NCBI GenBank assembly: GCA_963921825.1
Contig: OY997589.1
Coordinates: 1,922,001 to 1,986,000, forward strand
DNA: 64,000 nt
Direction of reading: 5' to 3'
Source: Erodium maritimum
Lineage: Eukaryota; Streptophyta; Magnoliopsida; Geraniales; Geraniaceae
The notes below the pieces were generated by a model, which worked only from the letters and a program-made list of their open reading frames with translations, had not been told where the DNA came from and did not search any database. Both the position numbers and the translations under genes were made by a program. This document shows positions 904 to 64,000 of this stretch, piece by piece (positions within the stretch are counted from its first letter, which is position 1; each line of letters begins with the position of its first letter).

Positions 904-1006
904 TTTTTATAATTTTGCTTCTTATATTTTCATCTCTTGTTTTGTTCATTGTAGATAAATATATTTTAAAAAATAAACTTTTCTTTTCCAGGCCGCCCTT
1001 GCAACA

Positions 1007-12436: not shown

Positions 12437-13200
12437 GAGCAACTTCAATGGTATATTGGGATTAACCCGCGATTAGCCCGACTATTCCATCTGACTCTTC
12501 CCAAATTGACGAGTCTCTCACAATGTAATCAGCTATTAGCCCGACTATTCTTTGGCATTCCAAGTTGTCGAGCGATTTTGTTCGACGTGAAACCCAAAAA
12601 TCACCTTCTCGTTGGACAAAAGTAGCACATTGAGATTTGTCTAGGGATTAACCCATGATTAGCCCGACTATTCCATCCGATTCTTCCAAAATTGATGAGT
12701 CTCTCACAATGCAGTCAACTATTAGCCCGACTATTCTTTGGCATTCCGAATTGTCGTAGCACATTGAGATTTGTCCGGGGATTAACCCATGATTAGCCCG
12801 ACTATTCCATTCGATTCTTCCCAAATTGATGAATCTCTCACAATGCAGTCAACTATTAGCCCGACTATTCTTTGGCATTCCGAATTGTCGAGCGATTTTG
12901 TTTGACGTGAAACCCGAAAATCACCTTCTCGTTGGACGAAAGTAGCACATCGAGATTTTTCCAGGGATTAACCCGCGATTCCTCCGACTATTCCATCTGA
13001 TTCTTCCCAAATTGACGAGTCTCTCACAATGCAGTCAGCTATTAGCCCGACTATTCTTTGGCATCCCGAATTATCGAGCGGTTTTGTTCAACGTGAAACC
13101 CGAAAATCACCTTGTCATTAGACGAATGTAGCACATCGAGATTTGTCGAGGCGACCTGAGCCAAAACCCGGATTCGCTCACTGTCAAAAATGCTCTTACA
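12437..13200. repeat. 186-bp tandem array, 4 units, inside a TIR-like element
   Basis: GGGATTAACCC recurs at 12458, 12644, 12778 and 12964 (spacings 186, 134, 186). The second unit lacks about 52 bp between GAATTGTCG and GTAGCACATTGAG. The outer edges TTTTAGAGCAACTTCAATGG and the reverse complement of TCAAAAATGCTCTTA suggest terminal inverted repeats. Located between ACLA and the tRNA gene. Confidence 0.85.
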
Positions 13201-13289: not shown

Positions 13290-13371
13290 CGTGAGCGGCA
13301 GGATTCGAACCTGCGCGGGCAAAGCCCACATGATTTCTAGTCATGCCCGATAACCACTCCGGCACGCTCAC
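13290..13371 (-). tRNA. tRNA-Ser (anticodon AGA)
   Basis: The reverse strand folds into a class II tRNA: acceptor GTGAGCG paired with CGCTCAC, D-arm CCGGAGTGG, anticodon stem-loop with loop CTAGAAA (anticodon AGA at 13336-13338), long variable arm TGGGCTTTGCCCG, T-arm GCAGGTTCGAATCCTGC, and discriminator base G at 13290. No intron. Box A and box B promoters are intact, so it should be transcribed by RNA polymerase III. It decodes UCU and, after inosine modification, UCC and UCA codons. Confidence 0.97.
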
Positions 13372-33404: not shown

Positions 33405-36367
33405 ATGGCCGGCGGCGGCGGAGGAGGAGCGGAGGCGCAGTACGTGACGGCGAAGACGTCCGTGTGGTGGGACATAGAGAACTGTCACGTCCCCAAGAAC
33501 TGCGACACCCACGCGATCGCTCAGAACATCAGCTCCGCCCTCGCCAACATGAACTACTCCGGCCCCGTCTCCATCTCCTCCTACGGCGACACCAATCGCA
33601 TCCCCGCCTCCGTCCAGCACGCCCTCTCCAGCACCGGCATCGCCCTCAACCACGTCCCCGCCGGTACTTGATTTCGCCCCCTTTTGTTGTTTCGATTGGA
33701 CCGGATCGAATTTGGTTGATCTGATCGGTAATTTGAGTTTCCGATGAGCTGATTCTGTTGATTTTGCTTGAAATGGTGCAGATCGATTCACCGATGAGCT
33801 GATCTAGTTGATTCGGTAGAATCGGCTGTTGATTTTGCTTGAAGTGGTGCTCATTGGATGAGTAATTTCAGATCTGTTGATGATTGGCTGTAGTTTGGTG
33901 ATTTCAGTTGATTTACTTGATTGGTTATGTTCTTGTGGAGCTGGATTAACTTGTCTTGCTTTGAATTTTACAATCTCATAACTTAACCAGTATGATGAGC
34001 TAATCTAATTGACTAACTAGTATATGATGTTGATTTTGCTTGAAATGGTGTTGATTGGATGATAGATTTCAGATTTGTTGATGATCAGGTTGTGATTTGG
34101 TGATTTCAGTTGACTTGAGGCTTGATTGGTTACTGATTATGATCGGTTATGTTCTTGTTGAGCTGGATTAACTTGTCTTGCTTTGAATTTTACAATCTCA
34201 TAACTTAACCAGTATGATGAGCTAATCTAATTGACTAACTAGTATATGATGTTGCTTTTTGCTTGAAATGGTGTTGATTGGATGATAGATTTCAGATTTG
34301 TTGATGATCAGGTTGTGATTTGGTGATTTCAGTTGACTGAAGACTTTATTAGTTCCTGATTCTGTTCTTTGTTATTTGTGTTGATGAGCTAATCTAATTG
34401 ATTAACTGGCATATAATGTTGATTGGATGATTAATTTTAGATTTGTCGATAATCAGGTTGTGATTTGGTGATTTCAGTTGACTTAAGACTTGATTAGTTC
34501 GTAGTTATATTCTTGTTGAGCTGGGGTTAACTTGTAGCATAACCGTTCTTTGTTATTCAACTTCTAAATTTTCAAATTGGATCTTGCAATGCTAACAGGT
34601 GTTAAGGATGCAAGTGACAAGAAAATTCTTGTGGACATGTTGTTCTGGGCAGTGGACAATCCTGCCCCCGCCAATTATCTGTTGATTTCCGGTGACCGGG
34701 ACTTCTCTAACGCCCTCCACCAGCTGCGTATGAGGAGATACAATATTCTCGTAGCACAACCTCATAAAGCATCCGCTCCCTTACTTGCTGCTGCGAAAAG
34801 CGTTTGGCTATGGACAAGTCTTGTGGTCGGAGGACCGCCACTAACAAATGGTGAATCAATGCAACTGGTTAATAACAACTTTGTATCGGGTTCTGACACC
34901 TTACAGGTTCCAGTTTCGGACTCCATGAATTTCAGACAACAAGATTTTGGTTCTGAGAATCCTCAATATGGAAATGAAAAGTTTCCTAGCACAGCAAGGT
35001 CTGTTGATCCTAAATATAAAGGAAAACCAGTTCGAAGATACCCGGGTCAAGCAAATGGATCAAGACAGTTCGGTCCACCAGGTGGAATTGAAGATCATAA
35101 CCAATTTAATCCCACCAGACATGGTAACTTCAATCCCAGAGCTAGTGGAGCTCCCCCTAATTATATTCCTGGAAATCCTGATCCTTCATGGAGTGGTAAC
35201 AATAATTTCCAGAGCAATTACCAAAATCATTATCCCCAGCCTATGAGGCCAAACTCTTTTGCTACACGACCCTCATTTGCACCTAAACCTAACATCTACC
35301 CGTCTCCTTCAATGCCTCCTCATAGGCCTGCTGGATCCACCCACACCTCTGGCCCGTCTACAAATGGTCTTGATATTGGTGCACAAAGTATCCTTGGAAA
35401 TCCAAACAGTGTTCACAACCCTTCTTTTCAACATCGCAACGGAGAGATAAATCCATCTTCAACTGAGTCTACAAACCCTGTAAGTAGTATTGATACCCAA
35501 AATGGACATATGGTGCACAACATGCCACCATCAATTCGCCCTATACCGAACAATAGAAGTCTTCATGGTTCAAGATATTCACCACCAATTCCATTATCAT
35601 CTTCAGAATCAGGTGCTGCTAATAGTCATGGTAATGGCGTATGGGGGACTGCAGGATGTCCAAAACCTTCTGAGTACGTCCAAAGCCTTATAGGTGTAAT
35701 CTTACTGGCCCTGAACACACTGAAATATGAAAAGATTTCCCCAACTGAAGCTAATATAACTGATTGTGTTCGGTATGGAAACCCCAAGCAACGTAATACT
35801 GACGTCAAAAAAGCCTTGGATAGTGCCATTGAGCAGCAGATGATAGTGAAGCAGAATTTGGGTTCTGTGCAGCTGTACATTAGTAAGAACGACAAATTAT
35901 GGAAGTGTGTGAACCCAATCGGAGGCAGCCCTAAGCAGTACCCAAAAGCGACATGGGATGAACTCGAAAACTTTCTTGCATCTCCTACTGGACGATCTGC
36001 AATGATGACCTCACAATGCAGGTAAAACCTCTTAACTCCTTCAGATTTATTTTTGCCTCCTTGATTTGTCTTCTTGCTTATACTTTCGTATCTGGTGTAA
36101 AGGTATGAGGCAGCTACTATTTTAAAGAGTATGTGTTTGAAAGATCTTGCTTTGGGAAATATACTCCATATCTTGCACATGGTTGTTATGATAAAGAAAT
36201 GGATCACACACCCCCAGTCGGGTTGGCAACCAATCACCATTGTTGTTCCCGAGGCCAACACTGAATTAGTTCAAGTGACTGAACTAGAGTCTGTGACTGA
36301 ATTAGGGCCTGTGACCGAATCAGCGAATGAGGCTGTGGCTGTAGCTGTAGCTGTAGCTGAGACATAA
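33405..36367 (+). CDS. NYN-domain, limkain-b1/MARF1-like RNA-binding protein
   Basis: Probable RNA-processing protein with a PIN-like nuclease fold. Exons 33405-33663, 34599-36021, 36103-36367; 648 aa. The NYN domain spans about residues 16-155: [11 protein letters not shown] holds the first acidic residue and [12 protein letters not shown] plus [12 protein letters not shown] the others, so the acidic site looks intact. A long Pro/Asn/Ser-rich disordered middle follows (about 160-430). A helix-turn-helix OST-HTH/LOTUS-like module lies about 440-520 ([37 protein letters not shown]). The last exon encodes [12 protein letters not shown] and a low-complexity AVAVAVAE tail from a GCTGTA microsatellite. 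Mammalian MARF1 silences retrotransposon and other RNAs; the plant role is inferred only. Intron 1 is expanded by tandem repeats. Confidence 0.9.
33780..34550. repeat. Tandem repeat (about 222 bp) in NYN intron 1
   Basis: The block with TTGAATTTTACAATCTCATA, GATGAGCTAATCTAATTGA and TTGTTGATGATCAGGTTGTG occurs at about 33960 and 34182, with a shorter third copy from 34370. Other echoes begin at 33740. Confidence 0.85.
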
Positions 36368-49559: not shown

Positions 49560-49760
49560 AAACATTGATGAACCAATCTATAATATTAATGAGTCAATAA
49601 AGTTCTTCTAACGAGGAGATGAATTTGTACAAAATATTCATGAATATTACTTTTCTAATGGGAACATGAACCTCTATATATATAAATATAAATTCCGATC
49701 ACATTAATTATATTACGGACCAAAACTCAATTCAATAATTCATACTCTATTAAATCATAT
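49560..49760 (+). promoter_or_regulatory. Upstream module and promoter, PMEI-like gene 1
   Basis: Contains the cluster-specific block (CTAACGAGGAGATGAAT, ACAAAATATTCATGAATATT, TAATGGGAACATGAACC) at 49607-49672, also found before genes 2, 3 and 4. A TATA-like TATATATATAAATATAAA at 49675-49692 and the motif AAATTCCGATCA follow; the latter is shared with gene 5. Confidence 0.65.
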
Positions 49761-50285
49761 ATGACTAATCTAAGTCATACATTGATATGTTTCTTTCTTC
49801 TTACATTATTTCATTCTCCTACACCAACAAAGGCCACCGTAATCGAAGATTTTTGTAAACTCTTTCACAATTACAATTATTGTGTAACGATCATCCAATC
49901 CGATCCCAAAGCTTCGTCGGCCACGAGCCTCCATGACCTCGGAGGTGCAATAATCGAACTGGCAACGAGAGATGCATCCGACACAAAAAATCTCGTTCAG
50001 GGCTTGGAAGAGAATCAAAGACTCCCGCCTCCAGTTCTGAATGCGCTATCTACGTGCGGGGATCGTTATAAAAAAGTGCTTACGCATCTGAAAGACGCGT
50101 CAGAGAAATTTGGTGTAGGATTGTTTGACTTGGCTTTCGTCGGGTTTATGGGTGCTCGAGATGATGGTAACCTTTGCAAGATGGCAATGTCGAGCAATCC
50201 TATCGATAGCGTTTCGAAGCAAAACAAGGTTGTTTATAACATTTGCACAATGGGGGGAAGAGCTATGGTGGAACTTGGAAAATAA
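49761..50285 (+). CDS. PMEI/invertase-inhibitor-like protein, cluster gene 1
   Basis: 174 aa, secreted. Residues 1-24 are a signal peptide (LICFFLLTLFHSPTPTKA). The mature part has the cysteines expected of the pectin methylesterase inhibitor/invertase inhibitor four-helix fold: FCK...NYC near the N-terminus, STCGDRY near 98 and LCKM near 140, plus a fifth in NIC. The segment ATSLHDLGGAIIELA fits the second helix. Family members bind and block cell-wall pectin methylesterases or invertases, or are pollen allergens of the Pla a 1 type; the target here is unknown. No intron. It is the first of five same-strand paralogues and is closest to gene 5. Confidence 0.85.
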   Translation: MTNLSHTLICFFLLTLFHSPTPTKATVIEDFCKLFHNYNYCVTIIQSDPKASSATSLHDLGGAIIELATRDASDTKNLVQGLEENQRLPPPVLNALSTCGDRYKKVLTHLKDASEKFGVGLFDLAFVGFMGARDDGNLCKMAMSSNPIDSVSKQNKVVYNICTMGGRAMVELGK

Positions 50286-52446
50286 GCCTCCAACGATTGT
50301 ATGACATTAATAAATTTAAGTTTGTTTTGCCATGGTTATCGGGTGAGTGACTAACACTCTAAGAATATCAAATAGATGATTGGACAATGGTTGACACTTT
50401 CATGTTGAACTAATTTTGCTCAAATGGACCGTAATCATGTCTTGGTTAAAAACTTATGTCGCCCTCCCTTAGATATATGTGCCTCTTGAGTTAAGAGCGT
50501 GGTGAAAATATTGTTCGACTTGACGGGAGACGAAGTGATACCTAAAAGTGCTGGCTCCACCCTGAGCGGGGTGGTTGGGAAGTATCATCCCAATCACCCG
50601 CCCCTAAGACCTCCATTCGGGTAGGCAAGGGTGCTTCCTGCCTTTACATGTTGCACCTTTACCATAATAATTTTTGGTGTGTCGATATCAATATCTTGGT
50701 GAACCCCATATCGTGTACGATATGAAACCCAGTTGACGATTCCAATCGTCGCGAAGGAAATTTATGACGGTAACTCAAACTGAATACCAGATCCTTCCGC
50801 TATAGGGATTGGCTTTGAACTTAGCAAGCATATCATAGTGCTTGATCACAGATGTGTGCCAATTATGTGAGATGATAAGTAACAGAGCTTTGGAATTGTG
50901 GAGTGATTGGCTCTGATTGTTGTCGCTCATGTCTTGGTCATAAACCTTATGCCTTTTCTATGATCCAAAGCGTTCGAGGTCACCAATCCAAAGCGTCGTG
51001 ATCGCATCTCACATGACATGTTCCATTAAATAAATAAAGAACAAAGATTCTTATGAGATACACTTATTTTAATTAGGAAACTCCATATTAACACAATTAA
51101 AAAAACTGAAACCTAGGGTTTCCTTCTCAAACTCTTGTAACGCTATTTGCGATCAAGCTATCGCATCCACTCTGGAGCCCCCGATCAGCCCCGTCCACTA
51201 CTACCAAGGAGCCACAATAAGTACGCCCTACAACACCGACTGCATCTCGTCTACTATCTCGTAGTCCCGCTATAAGCCGCCTGACACGATGGGGACCTTA
51301 GAAACTTCCGAGGGAAGAATCCACCCACAACACCAAATATCGCCATAAACTCCCCCATGAGATGATATGCAGGCAGCCTAAGGAAGGACCTACCATGGAG
51401 GACTCTCGTCGATTACCACCGAGTAAGTTTTCTCGAACCACGGGGAATATGGATGAACCGACTATCCGCTGGATGCCAACGGAGACACTGATGGGGGAAA
51501 TATCCACTGAACGATTAAGAAGAGATCGACGGTGAGTGATCCACTGCAGACCTATACTAGGGCGCCGCCATCGAACCCAGGAGTTGATGATGCCCAGGCC
51601 ATCATGCACTAGAAAGGGACCCTAGGATCAAGGCCGCGACTCGTGTAGGAAACCTAGCGCCACGAGGGCAACCTCTCCTCGTCGACGATGATCCACCACT
51701 ATGAACGGGTTATCCCCAATCCAGCATGCATTGATCCCTTTAAACAAGGCTCTCAACAAATCCTAAAGGGTTGTGGAATCCGAAGGAGACTTCGGGTTGC
51801 AATAGATGTGTACATTCTGAGCATAATCTTAGTGCAGCCACTACCGGAACCATAGGACCCGGATCGAGGAATCGAGTCACCAAATAGCTTTCCACTGCTG
51901 ACAACACCTTGATGTTTCCAACGGGGTCCTACTGCCATCTGAATGGGACGCTCCCCCTGCTCCTACCCATCGGGTCTTGGACCCCCAATGGGACGTCTTG
52001 TCCAAGGACTCGAATGAGTTAGGCACCTATTTCCTAGGCAGCCCGTTCTCCACGAACGTTGATAACAATGTTGAGGTCAACCAACATGACGAAACAACGA
52101 GGCATGTTGGAATGCCTCACAGATCATCATGAGTTGTATCAAGGATCTTAGGGTGTCACTGAGAAGACACACCCCGATCGACACGAGTCAGCCCTCTATT
52201 GATCTCTACTTTCCTCCTTTCCTTGGCATACTCCTTGCCCGACTGTTGCGACACAACATAGGCGGTCAAGTCGAGACGGGGAATGACCTAAGAAGATATG
52301 ACGCCAAACATAGATCGAATAGGGAATCATCCCATAACTTCTCCCTGGTATACACCGAGATTTTAGCTATAAGATTAGTGTTTCGACTGTCATCAAAACT
52401 ATATCTCATCTTTTTTAAGTATTTCCGCTCATGTAAAGTCGTTTCG
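50286..52446. other. Degenerate retroelement-like region
   Basis: From about 51100 the reverse strand shows interrupted open segments (CLHIISWGSLWRYLVLWVD, GSYGSGSGCTKIMLRMYTS) with a composition like the LINEs nearby. Another possible boundary is the A-rich CTGAAACCTAGGGTTTCC at 51106. Frames are broken throughout. From 50286 to 51050 nothing is recognised. Confidence 0.4.
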
Positions 52447-52459
52447 ACTCCTTTATATC

Positions 52460-54298
52460 TTTTTTTTGAGCGAAAGGTGCAATTCTCATTACTGAAAAAC
52501 GATTACATAATCATGCATCGGGGAACAGGCTCCCCGACCATCAGGTCAGTATTCACGAACAATGGTTCAATGATCTTGTTAGTATCAGAACCGTCACAGA
52601 CGGTATTTGGATGCCTCGAGGGCAAGTGAAGAAAGTGATGAGAAAGAACGTGATGCCGGAGATCCTGAGGGACCTCGACAGTAATGGTGATGGTGGGAGG
52701 CAAAGCATTGTCCGGGGACCCCTCCCTAGGCCAGTCCCCAATACCAGGGACGAGCATCATCCTTCCCGGCAGGGTTTCACCCCCCCCCCCCCCCCCCCCC
52801 CCGCGCCTGTGATCGGACGCCCCACACCCTTGTGGATGCCTCTTTCATCAAAGTGCCAGCATCAGCACCCTTGGGGTGCGTAACCGAATCAACCGAGGGA
52901 CGAACAGCTCCGTGTCCCCGGATGATCCCGGGTAAGAACACACAGGGTGACCTATCACTGGCCACTTGTTTTGAACCGGGGGCCACTTGTTTTGAATCCG
53001 GGCAGAATCCGGGCAGTAAAGTGGCATGTCACTGGCCACTTGTCTCGAACCCTAATAGGGTGCCCGAAACCCGGATTAGGTATCAGGTCTAGTATTACAC
53101 CGGGTACCCTACTTCGAGGCAACTCGTTCTTAGATATCGGGTCTAGTGTCAATGTGCCGGCATCCTTTAAAATCCCTGGTCGGGGCTCCCAACGACCACG
53201 GGTTGCACATGGGCGAGATCTTGGCATCGCAGAATATCGGAGTGACGCTCTTCAAGACGCCTGGGGACGGCGTGACGGGTACCAGTACCAACGCGCCGAT
53301 CGGGCTTCCCTCTGAGACGGCACTGCCCCGAGCACCATAGCATCTTCCACCGCAACCCAGACGAAATTGCCCCCTGCAGTAGGAGGCCCTAAGCTGTACC
53401 CTCCAAGAGGCTCTTGCTCCTGCTTCCGATGCCGAGTCCACCTCCGGGGAAGCCGCTCGACGCTCCTCTTCAGGCCTCCACGGTCGCGCACCCAGTTCCT
53501 AATCCGAATGTTCCTCGACTGGGCCGGGGCAGTCGACGAGTACACCGTTCTCTCTCGAGTTTTCTTCCTCGCCGTCCCAAGAGTAGCAAACCAGGGCGGC
53601 GACCCCCTAACCCTAGAGGGCATGAGCGGCGGGTTAGGGTTCTGTCCACGCGACGTAGGGTTTGGCCCACGCAGATTAGGGTTCGACCCAAGAGGAGAGG
53701 ATCTTAGGTGTCGAGCTGAAATCGTCGAGAACCTCCAATACTCCTAGGTCGGCCGATAGAGGTGAGTACCAGGGGGAGTGGGGGGAAAGCCTGATGAACC
53801 ATAAGTCCCCGGAGAACCCAGCAATCCGACCTCGGATTCCCCGAGCCCACTCGCAAAATAAATTGGGGCACAACAGGGGGATCGGGGCATCGGAAGGCGG
53901 CGGCGGAAGGACCATCTGACCAGAAGATACAAGGGAGCCAGATGGAGTCGATAGAGAAAAGGAAGGAGGCATGGCGATTGGGCTAGGGTTGGCCGAGATC
54001 GTCGTAGGACAAGGGGGGAAGAGGCTCAGGGATGGGGGAATCAGGTAAGACCCACAAGGAAGATCGTGGATTCATGGTTGGCCCCGAAATCGCAAGAGGG
54101 ATGGGGGAGGAGAGAGACGACGAAGGTTGAGGGAATGCCAACCACTCCCATCCGTAGATAAACTCCGCACCAGGCGTGGTCTTCCACGTCATCTGGACAG
54201 AATAGGCGAACACGGGGATGACGAAATCAGACGTCCCAGGCAGCGCGACAGCAAAAACGATAGACGGTAACTCCATAATAACAACAGGCTAGGGCTAG
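52460..54298 (-). mobile_element. LINE-like retroposon with target-site duplication
   Basis: On the reverse strand it begins CTAGCCCTAGCCTGTTGTTA, has an ATG and a short open frame (MELPSIVFAVALPGTSDFVI), and ends ATTGCACCTTTCGCTCAAAAAAAA. It is flanked by ACTCCTTTATATC (52447-52459) and ACTCTTTTATATC (54299-54311), 12 of 13 identical. No reverse transcriptase is present, so it is internally deleted or non-autonomous. It includes a 23-base C run (52780-52802). It lies between PMEI-like genes 1 and 2. Confidence 0.8.
52780..52802. repeat. Poly-C run of 23 bases
   Basis: Uninterrupted C tract on the + strand inside the LINE-like element (G run in its sense strand). Could form a G-quadruplex; the length is also prone to sequencing error. 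Confidence 0.9.
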
Positions 54299-54311
54299 AC
54301 TCTTTTATATC

Positions 54312-54796
54312 AATAAAATCTCCTTGTTGGGTCAATCTTTTTTTTTATGAACCCCAAAATTCAAAATTGTATTTATGGACAAAATATCGAAATAAGTAAA
54401 ATACTTCAATGCACATAAAAACAAGAATTCATACCAGTGTAAATTTAGCCACCGTTACGTCTAATTAACAAAAACAACTACCGAATCAAGTTCTACTTAA
54501 ATATTCATAAATTAATATATTTTTCTAACGAGGACATGAATCTCTACAAAATATTCATGTATATTCTTTTTTTTTATTTAGAACATGAACCTCGTAGACA
54601 ATACCGATGAAATGTATTTTTTGGGGTGAGAAATCCAATTCATATTGCAAAATAAGTATCTCATTTAACTATTTATATAAAAATATTCAATCTTTGACTA
54701 TATTCCAAGAATTTTTTTTTTTTTTGAAATACCCTATAAATTATAGTTCATACCAATCTTGGGGCATTACTCCATTTCTTTGAAGAAGAAAAAAGT
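54312..54796 (+). promoter_or_regulatory. Upstream module and promoter, PMEI-like gene 2
   Basis: Has the shared block at about 54520-54600 (CTAACGAGGACATGAATCTCT, ACAAAATATTCATGTATATT, AGAACATGAACC), then GAAATCCAATTCATATTGCAA as before gene 4, a TATA-like CCTATAAATTATA at 54732, and the leader GGGGCATTACTCCATTTCTT. Confidence 0.65.
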
Positions 54797-55345
54797 ATGA
54801 AATCCCTAAGTATTATTACCATAATTTTCTCTCTTCTTGCATTACTCTATTCTCCTACGCAAACAAAAGCTACCTTAATCGAAGATGTTTGTTCCATCTA
54901 CCCCGATCCCGTCCCTTGCTCGAACATCCTGCAAAAGGATGTTCGAGCTTCGTCAGCCTCGAGTCTCATCGAGCTGGGAAGAGTTGTAGTGGAAATGGAA
55001 GCCGAAACCTTGCAAAAAGTGAAACATACGATCGATGAATTGCAAAGGGACGACGGATATCCTCCTCGCGCACACGACATCCTCAAAAATTGTGATGCTA
55101 AGTACTCGGGAACACTTATTTATCTCAAGATCGCAAGGGAGGATATTAGAGCGCACCGGTTCTACGTGGCCAGGTTCAGATTTTTCTCAATGTTCAATCC
55201 CATGGTTCTTTGCAATACACAAATGAAGGAGGCCTATCCGATCCAAAAACTTTCGATAGTGATCGATAGGGTAATTGCTATTGGCGATATCGGAATAAGG
55301 GTAATGGAAATGCTCCAGAAATCTCCTCCTCGTTGGGATGATTGA
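54797..55345 (+). CDS. PMEI/invertase-inhibitor-like protein, cluster gene 2
   Basis: 182 aa, secreted; signal peptide 1-25 (IIIFSLLALLYSPTQTKA after MKSLSIIT). Four mature cysteines in family positions: VCSIYPDPVPC, KNCDAKY and VLCNTQM. The typical block KDVRASSASSLIELG is shared with genes 3 and 4, so these form the second sequence type of the cluster, together with RDDGYPPRAHDIL. The acidic C-terminus ends PRWDD. Function by family only: an apoplastic inhibitor of pectin methylesterase or invertase, or a relative without inhibitory action. No intron; TATA box and leader present. Confidence 0.85.
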   Translation: MKSLSIITIIFSLLALLYSPTQTKATLIEDVCSIYPDPVPCSNILQKDVRASSASSLIELGRVVVEMEAETLQKVKHTIDELQRDDGYPPRAHDILKNCDAKYSGTLIYLKIAREDIRAHRFYVARFRFFSMFNPMVLCNTQMKEAYPIQKLSIVIDRVIAIGDIGIRVMEMLQKSPPRWDD

Positions 55346-55401
55346 TTCAATGTATGTCGTTCATAATAAATGAATAAAAACAAGGTATATCCATTTATTT
55401 T

Positions 55402-55745
55402 ATTTTGAGCGCAAGTTACAATATTATTAATTATTAATCAAAAGCCAACTACATTACTGTGTATCGGGGAACAGGGTCCCTGACCACCAGAAGGTCAGTA
55501 CAACGAACAATAGTTCACTGATCCTTTAATCTCATAACCGTCACAGACGAAACGCCGCTGCAACTCCTTCGGACACCGGAGGTTTTGACCGCCTCGAGGA
55601 GGAAATTGTATTTGGAAGAGAGAACAATGGCCGCCGCTGGAGAACTACCATCCGTGACGTCTCTTCCATCGCATACGCATGATCCGAGGGGGGAAAGGGT
55701 CCGCCGCCAGCGTCATGAAATCGCAAAAACCCTATCCTAGAGGGA
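55402..55745 (-). mobile_element. Short retroposon related to the 52.5-kb LINE
   Basis: The reverse strand ends TCCCCGATACACAGTAATG...TTGCGCTCAAAATAAAA, matching the 3' tail of the element at 52460 (CTGTTCCCCGAT, GACCCTG/AGCCTG, CGTCTGTGACGGTT). About 340 bp, heavily shortened. No certain target duplication. Confidence 0.65.
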
Positions 55746-56467
55746 GTCTGCGCCATCCGTCTTACGAAGATATAAGCAAAGTCCTTTATTTATGTATAGG
55801 AACCTCATTTGGGATTTCCTTTGTTTGTAAGTTTTTTTTTTGAGGGTTTCTCTTAAGCCCTTGTTCTTTGTTTCTAAAAGGCTTGATATATAAAATAAAA
55901 ACGGCTGATAAAAAAACACTAAGTGCGCTAATATTATTTTTGAACACAGAATATCAAATTTTCTTTTACAAATATGTTCCCTTGAACATGATTCTCTATC
56001 AAGGATTCATGAATCAATGCAATTTTCTAATGGGGTGATGTATATCTACAAAATATCCATGAATATTATTTTCTTTTTTTATTAGGAACATGAACTCCAA
56101 CATTAATGAAATGATATTTTTTTCGGTAAGGAATCGAATTCATCTTTCGGACATAAATATAATAATTGCTCCTTCGATCCATTGCAAAATATGTATCTCA
56201 TTTAATGATTCATAGAACTTAAATTCAATATTTAACTATTCCAAAAAACGAAGAACTTTTTTGGAATATCCTCCGTAGCTAATATCTTTTCGGATCAATT
56301 ATTAATACCTTAGTACCTCACAAACAAAAAATAAAAGTAAGGATTAGAGGGTACAATCAACTTTTAAAATAAGTTCGTTTCAAAAAAAAAACTTTCAAAA
56401 TAAGACTATTTTGTCAATTTCTATAGTTTAAACTCGAGTTCTTCTTCGTCTTTTTCCTCGGCCTATA
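55746..56467 (+). promoter_or_regulatory. Upstream region of PMEI-like gene 3
   Basis: The shared block lies at about 55985-56100 (AAGGATTCATGAATCAATGC, AATGGGGTGATGTATATCTA, AGGAACATGAAC), farther from the ATG than in the other copies. The TATA-like GCCTATAATG touches the start codon. Confidence 0.55.
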
Positions 56468-57016
56468 ATGAAAATTTTAAGTTTCATTATCGTAACGTTC
56501 TCTCTTCTTGCATTGCACTATTCACCAACGCCAACAAAAGCTACCCTAATCGAAGCTGTTTGTTCCAACACCTCTAATCCCGACGCTTGTTCCCAAATCC
56601 TCCGACCAGATGTTCGAGCTTCGTCGGCCTCAACTCTCATCGAGTTCGGAGAAGTTATAGTACAAATGGAGATCGAGGCCTTGGAAGCCGAGATAAATGT
56701 TATAGAAGGCTTGAAGAGGAACCGAGGATACCCTCCTAACGTGCATGGTATCCTTAATTCTTGCAATCTTCGGTGTAACGATACGATTTCTCTTTGCGCT
56801 TTCGCGAGTTATGACATTAGAGTGCACAAGTTCGGAAATGCCAAGGTCGATTTTTACGATATGGGCCATACCATGCAGTATTGCAGGGCGATTATGGTAG
56901 ATTGGACCGACGAAAGACTTTCGAGGAAGAACGATGAGACGATGTTGATCGGCGAGATAGGAGGTAAGGCCATGCTTTTACTTGAGCGTCACCCTCCCGT
57001 TCATCGGAATGATTGA
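56468..57016 (+). CDS. PMEI/invertase-inhibitor-like protein, cluster gene 3
   Basis: 182 aa, secreted; signal peptide 1-25 (VTFSLLALHYSPTPTKA). Cysteines VCSNTSNPDAC, NSCNLRC and QYCRAIM, plus an extra one in SLCAFAS. The block PDVRASSASTLIEFG and NRGYPPNVHGIL place it with genes 2 and 4. The coding frame is intact. The expected leader between the TATA box and the ATG (present in genes 2 and 4) is missing: the TATA-like CCTATAA runs directly into ATG, so normal transcription would start inside the coding region. It may be poorly expressed or use another promoter. Function by family only. Confidence 0.78.
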   Translation: MKILSFIIVTFSLLALHYSPTPTKATLIEAVCSNTSNPDACSQILRPDVRASSASTLIEFGEVIVQMEIEALEAEINVIEGLKRNRGYPPNVHGILNSCNLRCNDTISLCAFASYDIRVHKFGNAKVDFYDMGHTMQYCRAIMVDWTDERLSRKNDETMLIGEIGGKAMLLLERHPPVHRND

Positions 57017-57480
57017 TCTTGATGTATGTCATTTATAAATATATGAAAAGATAGGGTTTTGAATAATAATGTTGTTATTGTATTTGAATTGGTTCTCACA
57101 TTCTTAAAGTCATGAGATGTTTGAATGTTATAAGTGAGACAAAAGTTTATAGAAACTAAACGACTTTACAAAGCTCGGTTTTTGATACTACCAAAGATTC
57201 TGATCTTCATGTAGTTGTGAGGCCCCAAAACAATCAACCATGTCTTGATCCGGGCTGACCTAGGATGTCAATAATGTGTCTTGAACCTACTGGAGGATTC
57301 ATGGGATTCTGAGAGATGTGCTAGCTGTTCAATGAGGTATTTGTAGTGTGGTGGAGAAGTACGATTGGTCAAAACCAATCTCAAAGGAGACAAGACGTTC
57401 CCTTTCACAGACGTTCTGATTCTCCGCAGGTGCCTCAATGGACTTGACGAGATTGTTTAGTAAACCTCGCCTCATTTTTT
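57017..57480. other. Spacer after PMEI-like gene 3
   Basis: 3' UTR of gene 3, then sequence of unknown origin (57180-57470) with no clear ORF. Confidence 0.4.
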
Positions 57481-59300
57481 GAAAGCTCGGTTTTGTTGGG
57501 AAAATAGGGCTCATGCACAATGTCCGAGGAACTCATCCACGGACGGGTCAGGCAGGTGGCGGCGCCAGGAGATACAACACATGCCCAGGGTTCCAATTGT
57601 TCAGAAGGGCCATCGTTCCACGGATGGGCCGGGCTTGGCTGGACAAGGTCAGATGGGCTTGGGTCACACTAGGCCGAGAAGTGGAGGCTAGGTCGGGGTG
57701 GACCGGGCCTTCAAGGGTCGCCTCACAGGAACCCAAGGCAAAGCGAACTAAGGGGGGTCGGAGCCAGTAAGGTCAGCATGAACGTGGGAAGAACCCATTC
57801 TGGTAGGAGGACAACATACATCCTAAAATGAGGGACTTAGGGGCTCGGATGGGAGGTTTGGTCATAAGGGTGGTGGTGGTGCCTCAGACAGAACTATACA
57901 AGCGGGGCCTAATTTTTTTGCCTATGCGGTTGTGGAACATGTGATGACCACAAAGACTTTTTTCTGGAAGTCCTTGGTCAACTGGCTCAGTGAATTATGG
58001 AAGCTCGAGGACGTAGAAGCCCTGTCCTTTGGAGGTGAACATTGTGGTTTCTTCTTTGAATCTGCGAAAGAACAGGCTCAAGTGCTAGCTGGGGAACCGT
58101 TGACATTCTACCGCTCCCTAGTGCTCTTTGAGGATTTTGAGGCCCCAGATGAGGCCTCATGATATCTTTTTCACACACTTATCGGCGTGGGCTCATTTCT
58201 CCAATTTTGGCACATGTATGGCAGTGGACGGTGATGTGAACGGCATGAGCTGGGGGACTTCATGCAGATCAAGGTACAATTGGATGTCTTTCTACCCCTA
58301 TAGAGTCAGCTTTGGTTTTGTCTCTCCAAATCTGAGGTACAAACATTATTGCATATCTCTATTGAATGTCTGCCAGATCATTATTTTGATAGGACACCTG
58401 GTGTACGCCTTCCATACAGATCACAGGGATATGAGTCCTTCTTTTCGATCCCCTACTAACTCAAGATTGGTCGTCTCTCGGGCTCGCCATGGACGGATGA
58501 CCCCAAGTACCAATTGGGCCTACTTGGGGGAATCGTCTGGTCAACCGACGCCCAACTTTACCCCCGTGGCACCGAGACCAAGAGATCGCAAGGGCAAGGG
58601 AAAGGCAGTAGCGGAGGAGGTCTCCTCGACTAACCGAGTCAGATCTTTTCCCATTAGAGGGGCTTGTCCAGGCGATTCAGACTCTCCCTCATTGCGAGGA
58701 AGTGGGACTCAATCACATCTTTCACCCCTTAGGAGTCTCTCTCATTCCTTCCCAAGGAGCCGAGCAGAGGAGCACCCGAGCTTTACCAGGAACTTATCTA
58801 CATCTTCTCTCCCAATAGGTCGGAAACGACTGGCATAGGAGGCCCGTTACTTGGAGTTAGAAGGCTCTACACGCTCTGAGGGGGCGCACCGAACAACGAC
58901 GAGAGAAACAACCACCCTCGCCTCAGTCAATGAGGACCTAGGGGTCTAGTGAGAGGTCGACTAACAATATCGCCCCACTGGACATATGGTGGCAGTGGTT
59001 CCACCAAGTTCTGGCACGACACTCTTCTACTATCTCGAAAGTCATCACTCCCGCGTTCTTGGAGCCCTATTTTATCATTCTCGGGATGACGACGTGCGCT
59101 GGATCTCTAGAAGAGTTCATAGTCTTCCTAGGCGCCATTTATCCAGAAAAGGCCCTCCCTGTTCTAGCTTCCCGTTTGGATTCGTTGTTTCGATTTTTTC
59201 GGACACTATTGCAATATCACCTTCTAGACATTCCATTGAAGCATTTCGGTCCATGAGTTTTTACTCTTATTGTCTGTTTCCTTCTCCCATGACGTTATAG
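57481..59300 (+). mobile_element. Decayed LINE-like element with ORF1 remnants; family R copy 2
   Basis: Around 57990-58140 the frame GFFFESAKEQAQVLAGEPLTFYRSLVLFEDF resembles the DUF4283 region of plant LINE ORF1. Next comes a broken stretch with EVQTLLHISIECLPDH, like the part before the zinc knuckle, then a Ser/Arg/Pro-rich open frame (about 58430-58840, RPRDRKGKGKAVAEE). From 58915 the sequence matches 32655-33060 in reverse, reading PLDIWWQWFHQVLARHS and EPYFIILGMTTCAGS. Several frameshifts and stops, so it is inactive. Confidence 0.6.
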
Positions 59301-59324
59301 CTTTTTTCATGCCTTTTTAATACT

Positions 59325-59770
59325 ATTTTTTAACGTAAGAGACATATTTTATTGATTAAAATCGAAACATGGTACCAAAAGAACAAGGGGGAGTAGTCTC
59401 TCCGTAGACAAACTACAACTAATCTTCGAAAAGACCTAGGGGCATAGATGGGATTTTGATGTGAAACAAACTAAAACAACAATTAAAGTATGAAAAAGAA
59501 CTAGAACGAACACAATAATGAAACCAACTCTGGCTCAACCTAAACCCGACCATTATGGTCTGAATGCAAACGGGGCTTCCTACATAAATCACTAAATTTC
59601 GGAGGAATGCGCCTGGTATGGGGAGGTATCATGTGAGATGGTGGAGGATCCCCAAGAGGGGGCTGCCATTATTCTGAGACAGCCCAGGGCGGGGTGGCCT
59701 AATTGAACTTGGCGAGGCTGCATAGCAGACCTCGTCCGATTGCTTGGGCAAAGAGAGGATTAAATCTTGT
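59325..59770 (-). mobile_element. LINE 3' fragment, reverse strand
   Basis: The reverse strand has a typical tail, TGTTCTTTTGGTACCATG, TTTTAATCAATAAAATATG, then TTAAAAAATAG. About 440 bp, 5'-truncated. Possible target repeat TTTTTAATACTA/TTTTTAAATACA. Confidence 0.55.
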
Positions 59771-59806
59771 TTTTAAATACATAATTACGTTCCTCCGTAA
59801 AAATAA

Positions 59807-60240
59807 GGGATAATTCCACTTCAGTACCCTAAATCTTTCATATTTCATTTAGAATACCCTAAATCTTTTTTGTGTCACCTCAGTACCCTAAACTTTTATT
59901 AATTCATTTAGAGTACCCTAAATCTTTTTTGTGTCACCTCGGTAACCTAAACTTTCATTAATTCCATTTTAGTACCCACCATTAACTTTACATATGATTT
60001 CCATCCAAAATAGGTAAAATGACCATACTACCCATTACCAACAACCAAATTTATGGTTAAATTAACGGTGGGTACTAAAATGAAATTAATGAAAGTTTAG
60101 GGTACTGAGGTGGCACAAAAAAAAATTAGGGTACTCTAAATGAAATATGAAAGATTTACGGTACTGAGGTGACACAAAAAAGATTTAGAGTACTCTAAAT
60201 GAAATATGAAAGATTTAGGGTACCGAGGTGGAATTAACCT
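59807..60240. mobile_element. MITE family D, copy 2
   Basis: Palindromic element with ends AGGGATAATTCCACTTCAGT and GAGGTGGAATTAACCT. Units of GTACCCTAAATCTTT and TTGTGTCACCTCAGTACC are repeated in each arm. Sister of 25058-25451. Confidence 0.8.
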
Positions 60241-60339
60241 TAAAAATAATAACATATATTTCTAAAAGTTGAATATCCTATTTCAAAAAATATGAATATA
60301 TATCAAATTTCCTTTTTCAAATGTATTCCTTTTCTTATG

Positions 60340-60726
60340 TGTGAACATAAATCTCGGCTATGTCTACTACTTTTCTATTGTGGAGATCGAATTTCTACAA
60401 AATATTCGTGAATATTCCATTTTTTAATGGGAACATGAACCTGTTTTTTTGGTTAGAAATCCAATTCACATTGTAAAATAAGTATCCCGTTAAATTATAT
60501 TTTACATAAATTAAATTCAATACTTGACTATTCCAAAAAAGGAAATAAAATATATGTTTTTAACACATATCTTTTCGGATCAATTATCAATTAATACATT
60601 TGATTCAGAGTTCTTTTATGTTTCTCGTCAGCCTATAAAAAGTGATCGATCCTTTTCAACTGTTGTAATATTAATTTCCACATCATTCTTAGGGCATTAC
60701 TCCATTTTTCTTTGAAGAAAAATAAA
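60340..60726 (+). promoter_or_regulatory. Upstream module and promoter, PMEI-like gene 4
   Basis: Shared block at 60385-60442 (GATCGAATTTCTACAAAATA, TCGTGAATATTCC, GGGAACATGAACC), GAAATCCAATTCACATTG, TATA box CCTATAAAA (60632-60640), and the leader GGGCATTACTCCATTTTTC. The order matches gene 2. Confidence 0.7.
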
Positions 60727-61275
60727 ATGAAAACCCTAATTCTTGCTCTTACTCTAATTTTCTCTCTTCTTTCATTGCTCTATTCTCCTACACAAGCACA
60801 AGCCAAAAGAAAAACCGTAATCGGAGAAGCTTGTTACCTCTTCCCCGATCACTACCATTGCTTGAACGTCCTCCGAAAAGATGTTCGAGCTTCGTCGGCC
60901 AAGAATCTCGTCGATCTCGGTAAAGCCGTAGCACAAATGCAAACCGAGGCCCTGCAGGAAGAAAAAAGAATGATTGGTGACTTGAGAATGAACCGCGGAT
61001 ATCCTTCTCGCGCACACGACATCTTCAATAGTTGCGAAAATTTGTGCGATGAGTCACTTCCTTTTAGTGATTTAGCATTGGACTACATTAGAGCGGACAA
61101 GATCGCCGAAGCCAGGTACAAATTTTACAATGTAAGTGCTGCCATGTATACTTGCACGACGAATATGACGGCCTATCCCATCGAGAAACTTTCGAGGGTG
61201 AACGAGGAGGTGTTATATGTTAGCGGAATCGGAATAAAGGTCATGGCTTTGATCCTGTACCCTCGTCGTCGTTAG
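60727..61275 (+). CDS. PMEI/invertase-inhibitor-like protein, cluster gene 4
   Basis: 182 aa from ATG 60727 (no earlier in-frame ATG). Signal peptide 1-26 (LALTLIFSLLSLLYSPTQAQA), then the basic KRKTVIGEAC, an insertion compared with the other copies. Cysteines ACYLFPDHYHC, NSCENLC and YTCTTNM. KDVRASSAKNLVDLG and NRGYPSRAHDIF group it with genes 2 and 3. It ends YPRRR at a TAG where the related copies read on for three residues to a shared TGA. Leader and TATA box are intact. Secreted, function by family only. Confidence 0.85.
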   Translation: MKTLILALTLIFSLLSLLYSPTQAQAKRKTVIGEACYLFPDHYHCLNVLRKDVRASSAKNLVDLGKAVAQMQTEALQEEKRMIGDLRMNRGYPSRAHDIFNSCENLCDESLPFSDLALDYIRADKIAEARYKFYNVSAAMYTCTTNMTAYPIEKLSRVNEEVLYVSGIGIKVMALILYPRRR

Positions 61276-61665
61276 AATGATTGATTCGATGTATGTCGTT
61301 CATAAATGAATATAGGGATAGGGTTATTGTAGTGCTTGTTCTTAAGGTCAGATGTTCGGATCTTAATAACCGGTCATATGATCGGATCAATAAATATAAT
61401 AATAGTTTTGGATTATTGGGGTTAATTTTATGGTTAAGCGAGTTCTCTCATTAGGGATTGTTTATCAAAAAAGTCTAAGAAATCAAATTCATTGGCACTC
61501 TCCTTTTATGGTGGGAAATTTAACAATATATGCTCCTAAGTCCTAAATGTATGGTAATTGTGTTATGTAGGAAGGAAAGAGATCAAAGAGATATTATGTA
61601 AATAATAATAATTGTGTAAAACAATAAGAAAAGTATATATCAAATTTTAAATTATAGAAATTACA
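61276..61665. other. 3' flank of PMEI-like gene 4
   Basis: 3' UTR-like and AT-rich, nothing else recognised. Confidence 0.4.
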
Positions 61666-62812
61666 CGCGCAACCTTAGGGTTTTGCGAAAATCACCTTCG
61701 ATTGCAGGGATCATGGCATCTACGGGTGATCTTGACGGAGGTGAAGCGTGCTTCGATGCCGAGCTCTTCCGGGAGCCGAGTACTCCGGAGCGGGAGGTGC
61801 AGGAGCGGGATGCAGGAGTGGACACGAGGTCGGGGCTGCTGGCGGCGTCCATGGAGGGAGTAACGCTCACGCCGGCAGAGGCGCTGACGCCCCGTGGGGC
61901 CAGTATAACCCCGATGACGTTCTCGGCCCAGAGGACGGTGGAGGAGGTCCGGGGCGAGGGGGACTGGTACCACACGGCGGCGCGGGGCATTAGACGTACC
62001 CCGGCGAAGGGGCCGCAGCCGAGACGGGGCAGTGGCTCGGTGGTGAGATCGCAGGAGCCCGTGGAGGGATTTGGATGGAAGTCATTCCCGGGAACGGAGC
62101 AGGTCGGCACGGAAGAGTCCATCAAGGAGGGGGTGGGCTCCTGCCGATTGTGGTGTCATCGGATACGGGAGCTTCGCCGGTGGAGTCGCCGGAGGTGCTG
62201 GCGTGGAGGAGAAGCAAGGGGAAGGGCTTGGCGCGAGCATCGTCTGGGGTTTCGAGTGATGGGCTGGACCGGGGCTGTGGGGATGAGGGCCTGGGCCGAG
62301 GCTTCCTCGCCGACGCCCGTCGCGTCGGGCGTGTTGTGCCGAACTGGCTTCCACGAGCAGGACAAGGACCAGGCCGGCGGGTTCAGCCCACAGGCGTAGC
62401 AGGCTGGACTTGAGGTGGGCCGGGTGATGTGGTGCGATGGGCTGCCAGGTATGGGGCCGGGGCGGGGTGGGATCGGGTCGCTCAACCGCTGGTCGGTATG
62501 GATGGGCCGGGTGAGGAGCCTGCCGGATACGGGGACGGGGCGAGCCCGGGGCTCTAACCCGTGGGTCCATCCGTCTGGTCTTGGGCCTTATCGGCTCCGG
62601 TCGGGTAACCCGGGTGGGCCGAATCCGATGGCTGGGTCTGTCCCGATTGGGGTTGGAATAGGGACCACCTCCTACTGTCTCTTGGGTTCAACCAAACATC
62701 TTATTAATGTTTCGGCCATTACCAAAATTGTATTTCATCCTGTTAGTTGATTTTCATTTATATACGGTATTTATGACCTTTTTATTAATATATCAATAAA
62801 GTTCCGTCAATA
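61666..62812 (+). mobile_element. GC-rich LINE-like insertion with open frame
   Basis: Starts near CGCAACCTTAGGGTTTTGCG, has an ATG at 61712 and an open frame to 62399 (MASTGDLDGGEACFDAEL...), then a GC-rich part and an AT-rich tail ending ATATGCTAAAAAAAAG. The composition contrasts sharply with the AT-rich flanks. 5' leader, one frame and A-tail suggest a non-autonomous or internally deleted LINE. No known domain in the frame. Confidence 0.5.
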
Positions 62813-63096
62813 TGCTAAAAAAAAGTGATAACACTTGAAAGATCAATGTAATCAAGTGAAAAATATTCTTATACGATTATCCTTATTTTATTAAGAAACT
62901 CAAAAAGTCAAAATTCTATTGAAGGACAATATAATGAACACAGTATCAATTTTGTAACGAAAATAATTAAATACCATTTCAATGCACGTACATTTACGTC
63001 CATACCAAATCAAGCTCTAGTTATAAATTCCGATCATAAAAGTTACATCGCTAACCAAAACTCAATATTTTCTAGTAACAACGTTGTTTGGAAAAT
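62813..63096 (+). promoter_or_regulatory. Promoter of PMEI-like gene 5
   Basis: TTATAAATTCCGATCA (63019-63034) matches the TATA/initiator region of gene 1. The stretch 62890-63010 resembles the one at 54345-54480 upstream of gene 2 (TTCAATGCAC, TACGTC). The block with AGGAACATGAAC is absent here. Confidence 0.55.
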
Positions 63097-63882
63097 ATGA
63101 CCAATCCAAGTCACACGTTGGTATGTTTCGTTTTCCTCGTAGTTCTTTACTCTCCTACACCAACGAAGGCCACCGTAGTCGAAGATTTTTGTAAACGTAC
63201 CGACATTTACAATGATTGTATCACGATCCTCCAATCCGACCCCAAATGTTCGTCGGCCATGAGCCTCCACGATCTCGGAGGTGCAATCATTGAACTAGCA
63301 ACGAATGACGCATCCGATATGGAAAACCTCATTAGGGGCATGGGAGAGAACCAGAGACTCCCACCATCGGTTCTTAATGCGTTGTCTACGTGTGGTGATC
63401 GTTATAAGGATGTGATTACACATCTAAAAAATGCGTTAGACGATTTTGGTGGACGATTGTTCGACTTGACCTTAGTTGAGTTCATGAAGGCTCGGGATAA
63501 TGTTAACGCTTGCAAGATGGCAATGTCTAAGATCACTATCGACAAAGTTTCGAAGCAAAACGAGGTCGTTTATCACATTTGCGATCTTGGAGTGATAGCC
63601 ATGAGGGGACTTGGAAATTGGTCCATCGATTTGTGTTCCATTAATAAAATTAAGGTAGTTTTGTCATGTTTAGAACCTCTTGAATCTATCGTGTTTATAA
63701 TTATCATATTAGTTTTGAACTTAGAATATCAAATTTTGGATTACAAATATATTGCTTTTAGTAGGTGTGGATATGAATCTCCATCAAGAATTCATGAATC
63801 AATGCATTTTTCCAATGGGGTGATGTATATCTATAAAATATTCATGAATATTCCATTTTTTAATAGGAACATGAACATCTAA
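63097..63882 (+). CDS. PMEI/invertase-inhibitor-like protein, cluster gene 5, stop-loss form
   Basis: ATG at 63097. Residues 1-174 align with gene 1 without gaps at the ends (MTNPSHTLVCFVFLVVLYSP signal peptide, ATVVEDFCK, STCGDRYKDV, ACKMAMS, HICDLG). Where gene 1 reads GGA AAA TAA, this copy reads GGA AAT TGG: a small deletion plus changes removed the stop, so translation continues for 87 residues through former 3' UTR and the next upstream module to TAA at 63880. The added tail includes a hydrophobic run, VFIIIILVLNLEYQIL. The product may be membrane-held, misfolded or non-functional. The original 174-residue domain is intact. Family role as for gene 1. Confidence 0.78.
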   Translation: MTNPSHTLVCFVFLVVLYSPTPTKATVVEDFCKRTDIYNDCITILQSDPKCSSAMSLHDLGGAIIELATNDASDMENLIRGMGENQRLPPSVLNALSTCGDRYKDVITHLKNALDDFGGRLFDLTLVEFMKARDNVNACKMAMSKITIDKVSKQNEVVYHICDLGVIAMRGLGNWSIDLCSINKIKVVLSCLEPLESIVFIIIILVLNLEYQILDYKYIAFSRCGYESPSRIHESMHFSNGVMYIYKIFMNIPFFNRNMNI

Positions 63883-64000
63883 AATATTAATGTAATGCTT
63901 TTTTATGCAAAATAATAATGGGGTTTAATTTTAAAAAATATCCTTGTTTAGAAATATAATCGCACTATACTTCTTTAGTTTTACGTTTTTGATAAAGTTA
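63765..64000 (+). promoter_or_regulatory. Extra copy of the PMEI cluster upstream module
   Basis: ATCAAGAATTCATGAATCAA, AATGGGGTGATGTATATCTA, AAATATTCATGAATATTCCA and AATAGGAACATGAAC match the block before gene 3 (55985-56100) closely. It begins inside the extended reading frame of gene 5. A further PMEI-like gene would be expected about 90-370 bp past the block, at or beyond the window end. Confidence 0.65.

Follow-up and report, generated by a model that had tools for sequence, protein, structure and literature searches.

A tandem array of ten genes related to the inhibitors of pectin methylesterase (PMEI) and invertase was identified in Erodium maritimum; five of them lie in the window, the 64,000-nucleotide stretch analysed here (contig OY997589.1, or C2; C2:1922001-1986000). 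Genes 1-9 are numbered by chromosome order and gene 10 is a distant copy. They belong to two sequence types, following each other as A-B-B-B-A-B-A-A-B in genes 1-9, with gene 10 of type A. Computation shows type A to be under constraint and type B to have a minority of sites at a ratio of nonsynonymous to synonymous substitution rates (dN/dS) well above 1. Half of the array genes appear to have evolved with unusual speed, on the face likely to contact the target. The explanation considered probable is that the array codes for secreted inhibitors from the PMEI/invertase-inhibitor superfamily; type B would be re-tuning its docking side and type A keeping a stable target.

Evolutionary rates of the two types

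Pairwise dN/dS was 0.34 for genes 1 and 5, 0.59 for genes 7 and 8 and 0.61-1.16 among genes 2, 3, 4 and 6. Codon models (M0, M1a, M2a, M8a and M8) were fitted with a purpose-written program. For the five type B genes (2, 3, 4, 6 and 9) M0 gave a dN/dS of 0.93, and twice the log-likelihood difference was 30.8 for M1a-M2a and 31.0 for M8a-M8; with the four genes 2, 3, 4 and 6 the corresponding values were 0.97, 22.0 and 22.0. Under an alternative topology of type B, M1a-M2a was 30.3, and after removal of the signal peptide and near-gap columns (130 codons left) it was 34.1 with five genes and 28.4 with four. In 60 simulations of the trimmed five-gene set under M1a, run without realignment and without multinucleotide changes, the highest value was 10.1. 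With double and triple nucleotide changes in the models, type B M1a-M2a was 24.1 for the trimmed and 22.1 for the untrimmed five-gene set, and 14.1 for the trimmed four-gene set. Type A had an M0 dN/dS of 0.53, an M1a-M2a of 4.2 and an M8a-M8 of 6.5; positive selection is not claimed for it, since M1a-M2a drops to 0.4 with multinucleotide changes (M8 was fitted only without them).

Three control groups of PF04043 domains from the same genome, more diverged than type B (M0 tree lengths 5.5-6.2 vs 2.7-4.1) and aligned as domain pieces without signal peptides, had dN/dS of 0.18, 0.33 and 0.12 and no M1a-M2a gain; M8a-M8, fitted for two of the three, gave no gain either. In genes 2, 3, 4 and 6 identity is 61-69% in the mature coding DNA and 61-73% in the 5' flank, the former being no better kept; in genes 1 and 5 the two values are 77% and 52%, and in genes 7 and 8 they are 79% and 53%. 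The fast evolution proposed in the preliminary description has been demonstrated only in type B, by site models and simulations; type A is moderately constrained. Relaxed evolution with dN/dS near 1 in all five window genes was not what was found, given the value for genes 1 and 5 and, for the near-1 average of type B, the better fit of a site mixture that includes a class above 1.

Location of the changing sites

Eleven type B sites exceeded an M8 posterior of 0.9 by naive empirical Bayes: helices 2 and 3 have four each and helix 4 has three. The 83 residues from the signal peptide through the hairpin to helix 1 have none, and neither do the 22 loop and tail residues. Fisher's test of helices 2-4 against the 83 residues, a comparison picked after the sites were known, gave p 2e-4, or 0.002 without the signal peptide. 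The posteriors track the helix turn in each of helices 2-4 (p 0.003, 0.029 and 0.011, respectively, by permutation); no such pattern was found for the signal peptide (p 0.28), the hairpin (p 0.74) or helix 1 (p 0.95). The mean direction of the four selected sites of helix 3 is about 46 degrees from that of three published kiwi PMEI contacts, on the same side. According to the available portion of PMC8990755, the kiwi inhibitor contacts its enzyme through three bundle helices and not the hairpin. Sites on helices 2-4 fit this contact mode, and we infer that they probably match the target-contact side of the bundle.

It is also conceivable, if unlikely, that type B belongs to an ordinary inhibitor array and was merely freed from constraint, redundant copies drifting with nothing adaptive. 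Several points favour drift and weigh against re-tuning. Besides the type B means of 0.93-0.97, dN/dS across helices 2-4 is 1.16 with four genes and 0.99 with five, indistinguishable from 1, as is the five-gene signal-peptide value of 0.63; for hairpin plus helix 1 it is 0.81 with four genes and 0.70 with five. M1a leaves about 70% of type B sites at dN/dS 1, and the trimmed four-gene fit puts 81% at 0.97. Since the regional means are near 1, the adaptive case hangs on site mixtures in four or five sequences, fitted with our own code, on naive site calls and on a helix comparison chosen afterwards; the selected helix 3 sites, moreover, adjoin the three published contacts and do not coincide with them. 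Against drift, the M2a gain far exceeds all 60 simulations under M1a and survives multinucleotide changes. The signal-peptide dN/dS is 0.44 in the four closer type B genes, with dS there similar to the rest. Pure neglect is unlikely because all five type B open reading frames (ORFs) are intact, with their cysteines, and few neutral ones survive: when an ORF of type B length evolved neutrally in simulation, 6% of the trials left it open at 0.15 changes per site, and 1% did at 0.25.

Family membership and placement

The PMEI/invertase-inhibitor-like identity first proposed for the window genes is backed by Pfam, PDB sequence matches and structure comparison. PF04043 scores over its curated cut-off in six of the ten genes (1, 5, 7, 8, 9 and 10); genes 2, 3 and 6 stay below it at 24-27 bits vs 29, and gene 4 has no Pfam match, membership by this profile holding for the array as a clade and not gene by gene. 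All ten proteins keep the four superfamily cysteines in the alignment and have a hydrophobic, signal-peptide-like N-terminus that ends, by eye, in TKA or similar before the mature start. The predicted structures of genes 1 and 3 are four-helix bundles with an N-terminal hairpin, as in the PF04043 superfamily. The best PDB matches by sequence profile and structure were AdPMEI (1xg2) and AtPMEI1 (1x91, 1x8z), with structure-alignment identities to PMEIs of 18-20% for gene 1 and 9-18% for gene 3. Type B has up to two additional helix 2 cysteines, 4 and 11 residues past the third conserved one. Genes 3 and 6 carry the two together, gene 4 has just the one at 4 residues, gene 9 just the one at 11, and gene 2 neither.

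An 87-row tree comprised the ten array proteins, 75 other PF04043 domains of the genome and two PDB references. These 75 come from 119 non-array matches; the other 44 were mostly long open frames (probably pectin methylesterase proenzymes) and short fragments, and locus L091 was unused. The array forms one clade (support 100/99) on a long stem, separate from the 75 domains, which agrees with the earlier view of a group set apart. The two types, also described before, were recovered both here and in a 17-row tree (row x018 excluded). In the 87-row tree type A comprises (1,5), (7,8) and 10, and type B comprises 9, then 3, 6, 2 and 4. Locus L052 (row x014), the next-best match after the array in the genome, was set aside as neighbour of the array: its 98/97 in the 17-row tree was without support in the 87-row tree. 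A clade of the array with tobacco Nt-CIF is absent from the best tree and was not rejected by the approximately unbiased (AU) test (p 0.26), nor were groupings with kiwi PMEI (p 0.35) or with L052/L077 (p 0.30); including one grouping enlarged by L054, p was 0.26-0.35 throughout. The profile score is better to kiwi PMEI and leans that way, but is no placement test. A search of a large protein collection with genes 1 and 2 gave 29 and 67 candidates, none at E <= 0.001; as plant coverage of this collection is uncertain, the empty result is not taken as lineage-specificity.

Proposed explanation

PMEIs and invertase inhibitors govern wall stiffness and sugar unloading and, to our knowledge, the enzyme blocked by a given member cannot be reliably read from its sequence. 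In the explanation considered probable here, each protein would be exported to the apoplast and fold with two disulfides, and one side of its helix bundle would dock onto a carbohydrate-active wall enzyme, blocking it 1:1; candidate targets are pectin methylesterase, invertase or a relative. Type A would have retained a stable target. In the type B copies the docking side would have been re-tuned repeatedly, either through a changing partner or through several targets divided among the copies. Constrained and fast-changing types side by side, with the confident changes limited to three helices, amount to a natural experiment on target choice, a question that would become testable by exchanging helix faces between copies.

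Less probable than drift is a fold kept for a job other than enzyme inhibition, the proteins being secreted four-helix ligands, decoys, antimicrobial or storage-like proteins. Both published target fingerprints are missing or degraded, which also weakens the case for inhibitors. By eye, the PKF motif of invertase inhibitors with the following AE (helix 3) is present in none of the ten proteins, nor is the SAA motif of PMEI helix 3; counterparts of the enzyme-contact residues Asn101, Asp109 and Thr113 of kiwi PMEI (positions as in the available part of PMC4512722) were found in none, six and one (gene 4). The long stem branch and the rapid change of type B point the same way. Opposed to this are the retained hairpin, cysteines and fold, and the unreliability of the fingerprints, which fail in known cases: PKF is absent from the active AtC/VIF2, as the accessible text of PMC8990755 and PMC5797552 has it. 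Because both fingerprints are wanting and are known to fail, the proteins are filed under the superfamily, as neither PMEI nor CIF.

Decidedly improbable, on our estimate, is a form of inhibition driven by conflict, with pathogen enzymes or between parental genomes in the seed, where type B would be diversifying apoplastic inhibitors with the target side remodelled per copy and the export signal and scaffold fixed. A nearby MADS-box gene would be a possible local activator. Its ORF (SRF-TF, E 3.4e-19) lies about 17 kb right of gene 9, and we take it to be AGL80-like (type I, M-gamma). A second open stretch 900 bp downstream of it, without Pfam match, may encode its C-terminus; the two occupy C2:2016926-2018682 (L012:926-2682; minus strand), about 16-17 kb right of gene 9. 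In protoplasts the InvINH1 promoter is activated by type I MADS dimers, AGL62-AGL80 included (PMC8734259, available portion), and for this reason the neighbourhood is suggestive; the proximity may be due to chance. It is very unlikely that type B consists of decaying pseudogenes or of annotation noise: gene 4 has no Pfam match and, elsewhere in the array, gene 5 has lost its stop codon, yet all ten ORFs are open, with conserved cysteines and kept upstream elements.

Layout of the array

The preliminary description had reported five intronless, same-strand genes, and five intact ORFs were indeed found at the expected positions (Table 1). The cluster extends beyond these five, to which it had been taken to be limited. 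Right of the window are four further genes on the + strand, starting at C2:1987043, 1991392, 1995930 and 2000719 (genes 6-9; for the third, the first ATG in frame is at 1995906), and about 200 kb beyond genes 1-9 is gene 10, an inverted copy (C2:2203932-2204498). Genes 1-9 lie within 30 kb; apart from gene 5, the ten genes encode proteins of 174-191 amino acids (aa). A search of the whole genome (763 Mb, 40 contigs) with the gene 1 protein gave 18 matches, 10 of them the array; with gene 4, ten candidates were found and scored, all of them the ten array genes. With gene 1 as query, gene 5 has E 2.3e-73 and gene 2 E 4.1e-19, a likeness that is not chance.

Among the shared features described earlier, the common cysteine pattern is present in all five window genes, and genes 1 and 5 are one type, both carrying SLHDLGGAIIELA and 69% identical. 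The signal-peptide end SP-TKAT is found in four of the five, gene 4 having SPTQAQAKRKT instead. Of the type motif DVRASSAxxLI given for genes 2-4, DVRASSA is common to all three, and gene 4 reads DVRASSAKNLV.

Table 1. Array genes and shared upstream elements in the window
Feature	Position in window	Strand	Basis
Gene 1, type A, 174 aa, PMEI-fold protein, signal-peptide-like N-terminus	49761-50285	+	ORF
Gene 2, type B, 182 aa	54797-55345	+	ORF; PF04043 27.2 bits vs cut-off 29
Gene 3, type B, 182 aa, two additional helix 2 cysteines	56468-57016	+	ORF
Gene 4, type B, 182 aa, without Pfam match	60727-61275	+	ORF
Gene 5, type A, ORF 261 aa (domain 63097-63618, extension 63619-63882)	63097-63882	+	ORF; PF04043 50 bits
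Shared upstream element, gene 1	49577-49673	+	Self-comparison
Shared upstream element, gene 2	54499-54646	+	Self-comparison
Shared upstream element, gene 3	55931-56120	+	Self-comparison and genome search
Shared upstream element, gene 4	60279-60440	+	Self-comparison
Upstream-element copy overlapping the gene 5 ORF extension	63706-63904	+	Self-comparison and genome search

Duplication history

Genes 5 and 6 form a second A-B pair that repeats the pair 1-2. Pairwise dS is 0.57 between genes 1 and 5, and 0.49, 0.58 and 0.33 between gene 6 and genes 2, 3 and 4. The repeated pair and the similar dS therefore fit the block copy followed by local copying that had been suggested; a single clean block copy is unproven because gene 6 branches within genes 2-4 in the 87-row tree. 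Site patterns in the four type B genes were 22 for genes 2 and 4 against 3 and 6, with 10 and 8 for the two alternatives. Genes 7 and 8 are a separate local pair, 83% identical across 682 nt. Gene conversion as the source of the conserved type B 5' end is not favoured, since the signal peptide and the mature part have diverged to a similar degree at synonymous sites.

Self-comparison identified an upstream stretch of 100-190 bp common to genes 1-4 and 6. It is present twice between genes 5 and 6, the second being gene 6's own, directly before that gene and just outside the window; the interval from gene 8 to gene 9 contains a weaker match. A genome search with the gene 3 element found at least three places, itself included, all within the array, a lower bound because it missed the diverged copies before genes 1, 2 and 4; no sign of a dispersed repeat was seen in this search, which is insensitive to diverged copies. 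The common elements suggest that the copies may have inherited related control. CArG-like sites upstream of the nine genes numbered 37 vs 25.7 expected (p 0.017, post hoc, in AT-rich DNA and unadjusted) and were not used.

The stop codon TAA of gene 1 corresponds to TGG in gene 5, whose frame stays open for another 87 codons, through DNA that in other copies is found upstream of a gene. The extension would be recruited intergenic sequence, the matching DNA being intergenic in those copies. AATAAA follows 22 nt after the TGG codon, and 24 nt after the gene 1 stop. The extension, which contains a hydrophobic run, is predicted from the ORF and may be translated or may be an assembly error.

Surroundings and other loci

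The left neighbours of the array are ordinary genes: those for SPT16, ATP-citrate synthase, a PPR protein and a NYN-domain protein (Pfam). SPT16 (FACT complex) is a single uninterrupted frame of 1122 aa at window 977-4342. Tandem repeats with 88-96% matches were identified at 6620-7301 (169 bp units), 12458-13151 (134-320 bp), near a tRNA-Ser at 13290-13371, and 33918-34361 (222 bp). An inverted repeat at 59808-60239 has 184-nt arms, 89% complementary, and 59-nt tandem units, and resembles a small mobile element.

Elsewhere in the genome, C1:136139845-136164090 (L065, L067, L068 and L069) comprises two near-identical PF04043 pairs on opposite strands around one centre. The arrangement resembles a recent inverted duplication; close relatives are located at C1:136.19 Mb (L064) and on C4 (L062). 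Partial PF04043 matches also follow each other at C5:3090583-3101045, and one of them contains an internal TGA.

Comparison with known systems

Literature searches on selection and on PMEI/invertase-inhibitor families turned up no paper with a recognisable tie to this array, a weak negative. The array is a further example of a familiar kind, rows of such genes being already known; the papers cited below are represented by their available portions. Plant PMEI genes are mostly single-exon, and in tomato, Arabidopsis and poplar a large share of the PMEI domains is reported to have Ka/Ks above 1 (PMC3741192). Arabidopsis AT5G46930-AT5G46990, compared by description only, is likewise a tandem cluster, of seven family genes (PMC3741192). 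InvINH1 (AT5G46960) and InvINH2 (AT5G46950) belong to it, as their locus numbers fall within the range; both have 174 aa, like gene 1, and are predicted to be extracellular (PMC5797552). Their site of action is the endosperm, where type I MADS proteins control them (PMC5797552, PMC8734259).

AdPMEI (kiwi) and AtPMEI1 have the fold, hairpin and four cysteines in common with the array, which does not keep Asn101, SAA or, save in gene 4, Thr113 of the kiwi protein. From Nt-CIF (1rj1, 2cj4, 2xqr) all ten proteins differ in lacking PKF, and a joint clade was neither found nor rejected. In Cardamine hirsuta tandem duplicates, PMEIs included, are likewise enriched in families with evidence of positive selection (PMC8826541); there the duplicates are tied to seed and pod expression, and in the array the selected sites map to helices 2-4 of type B.

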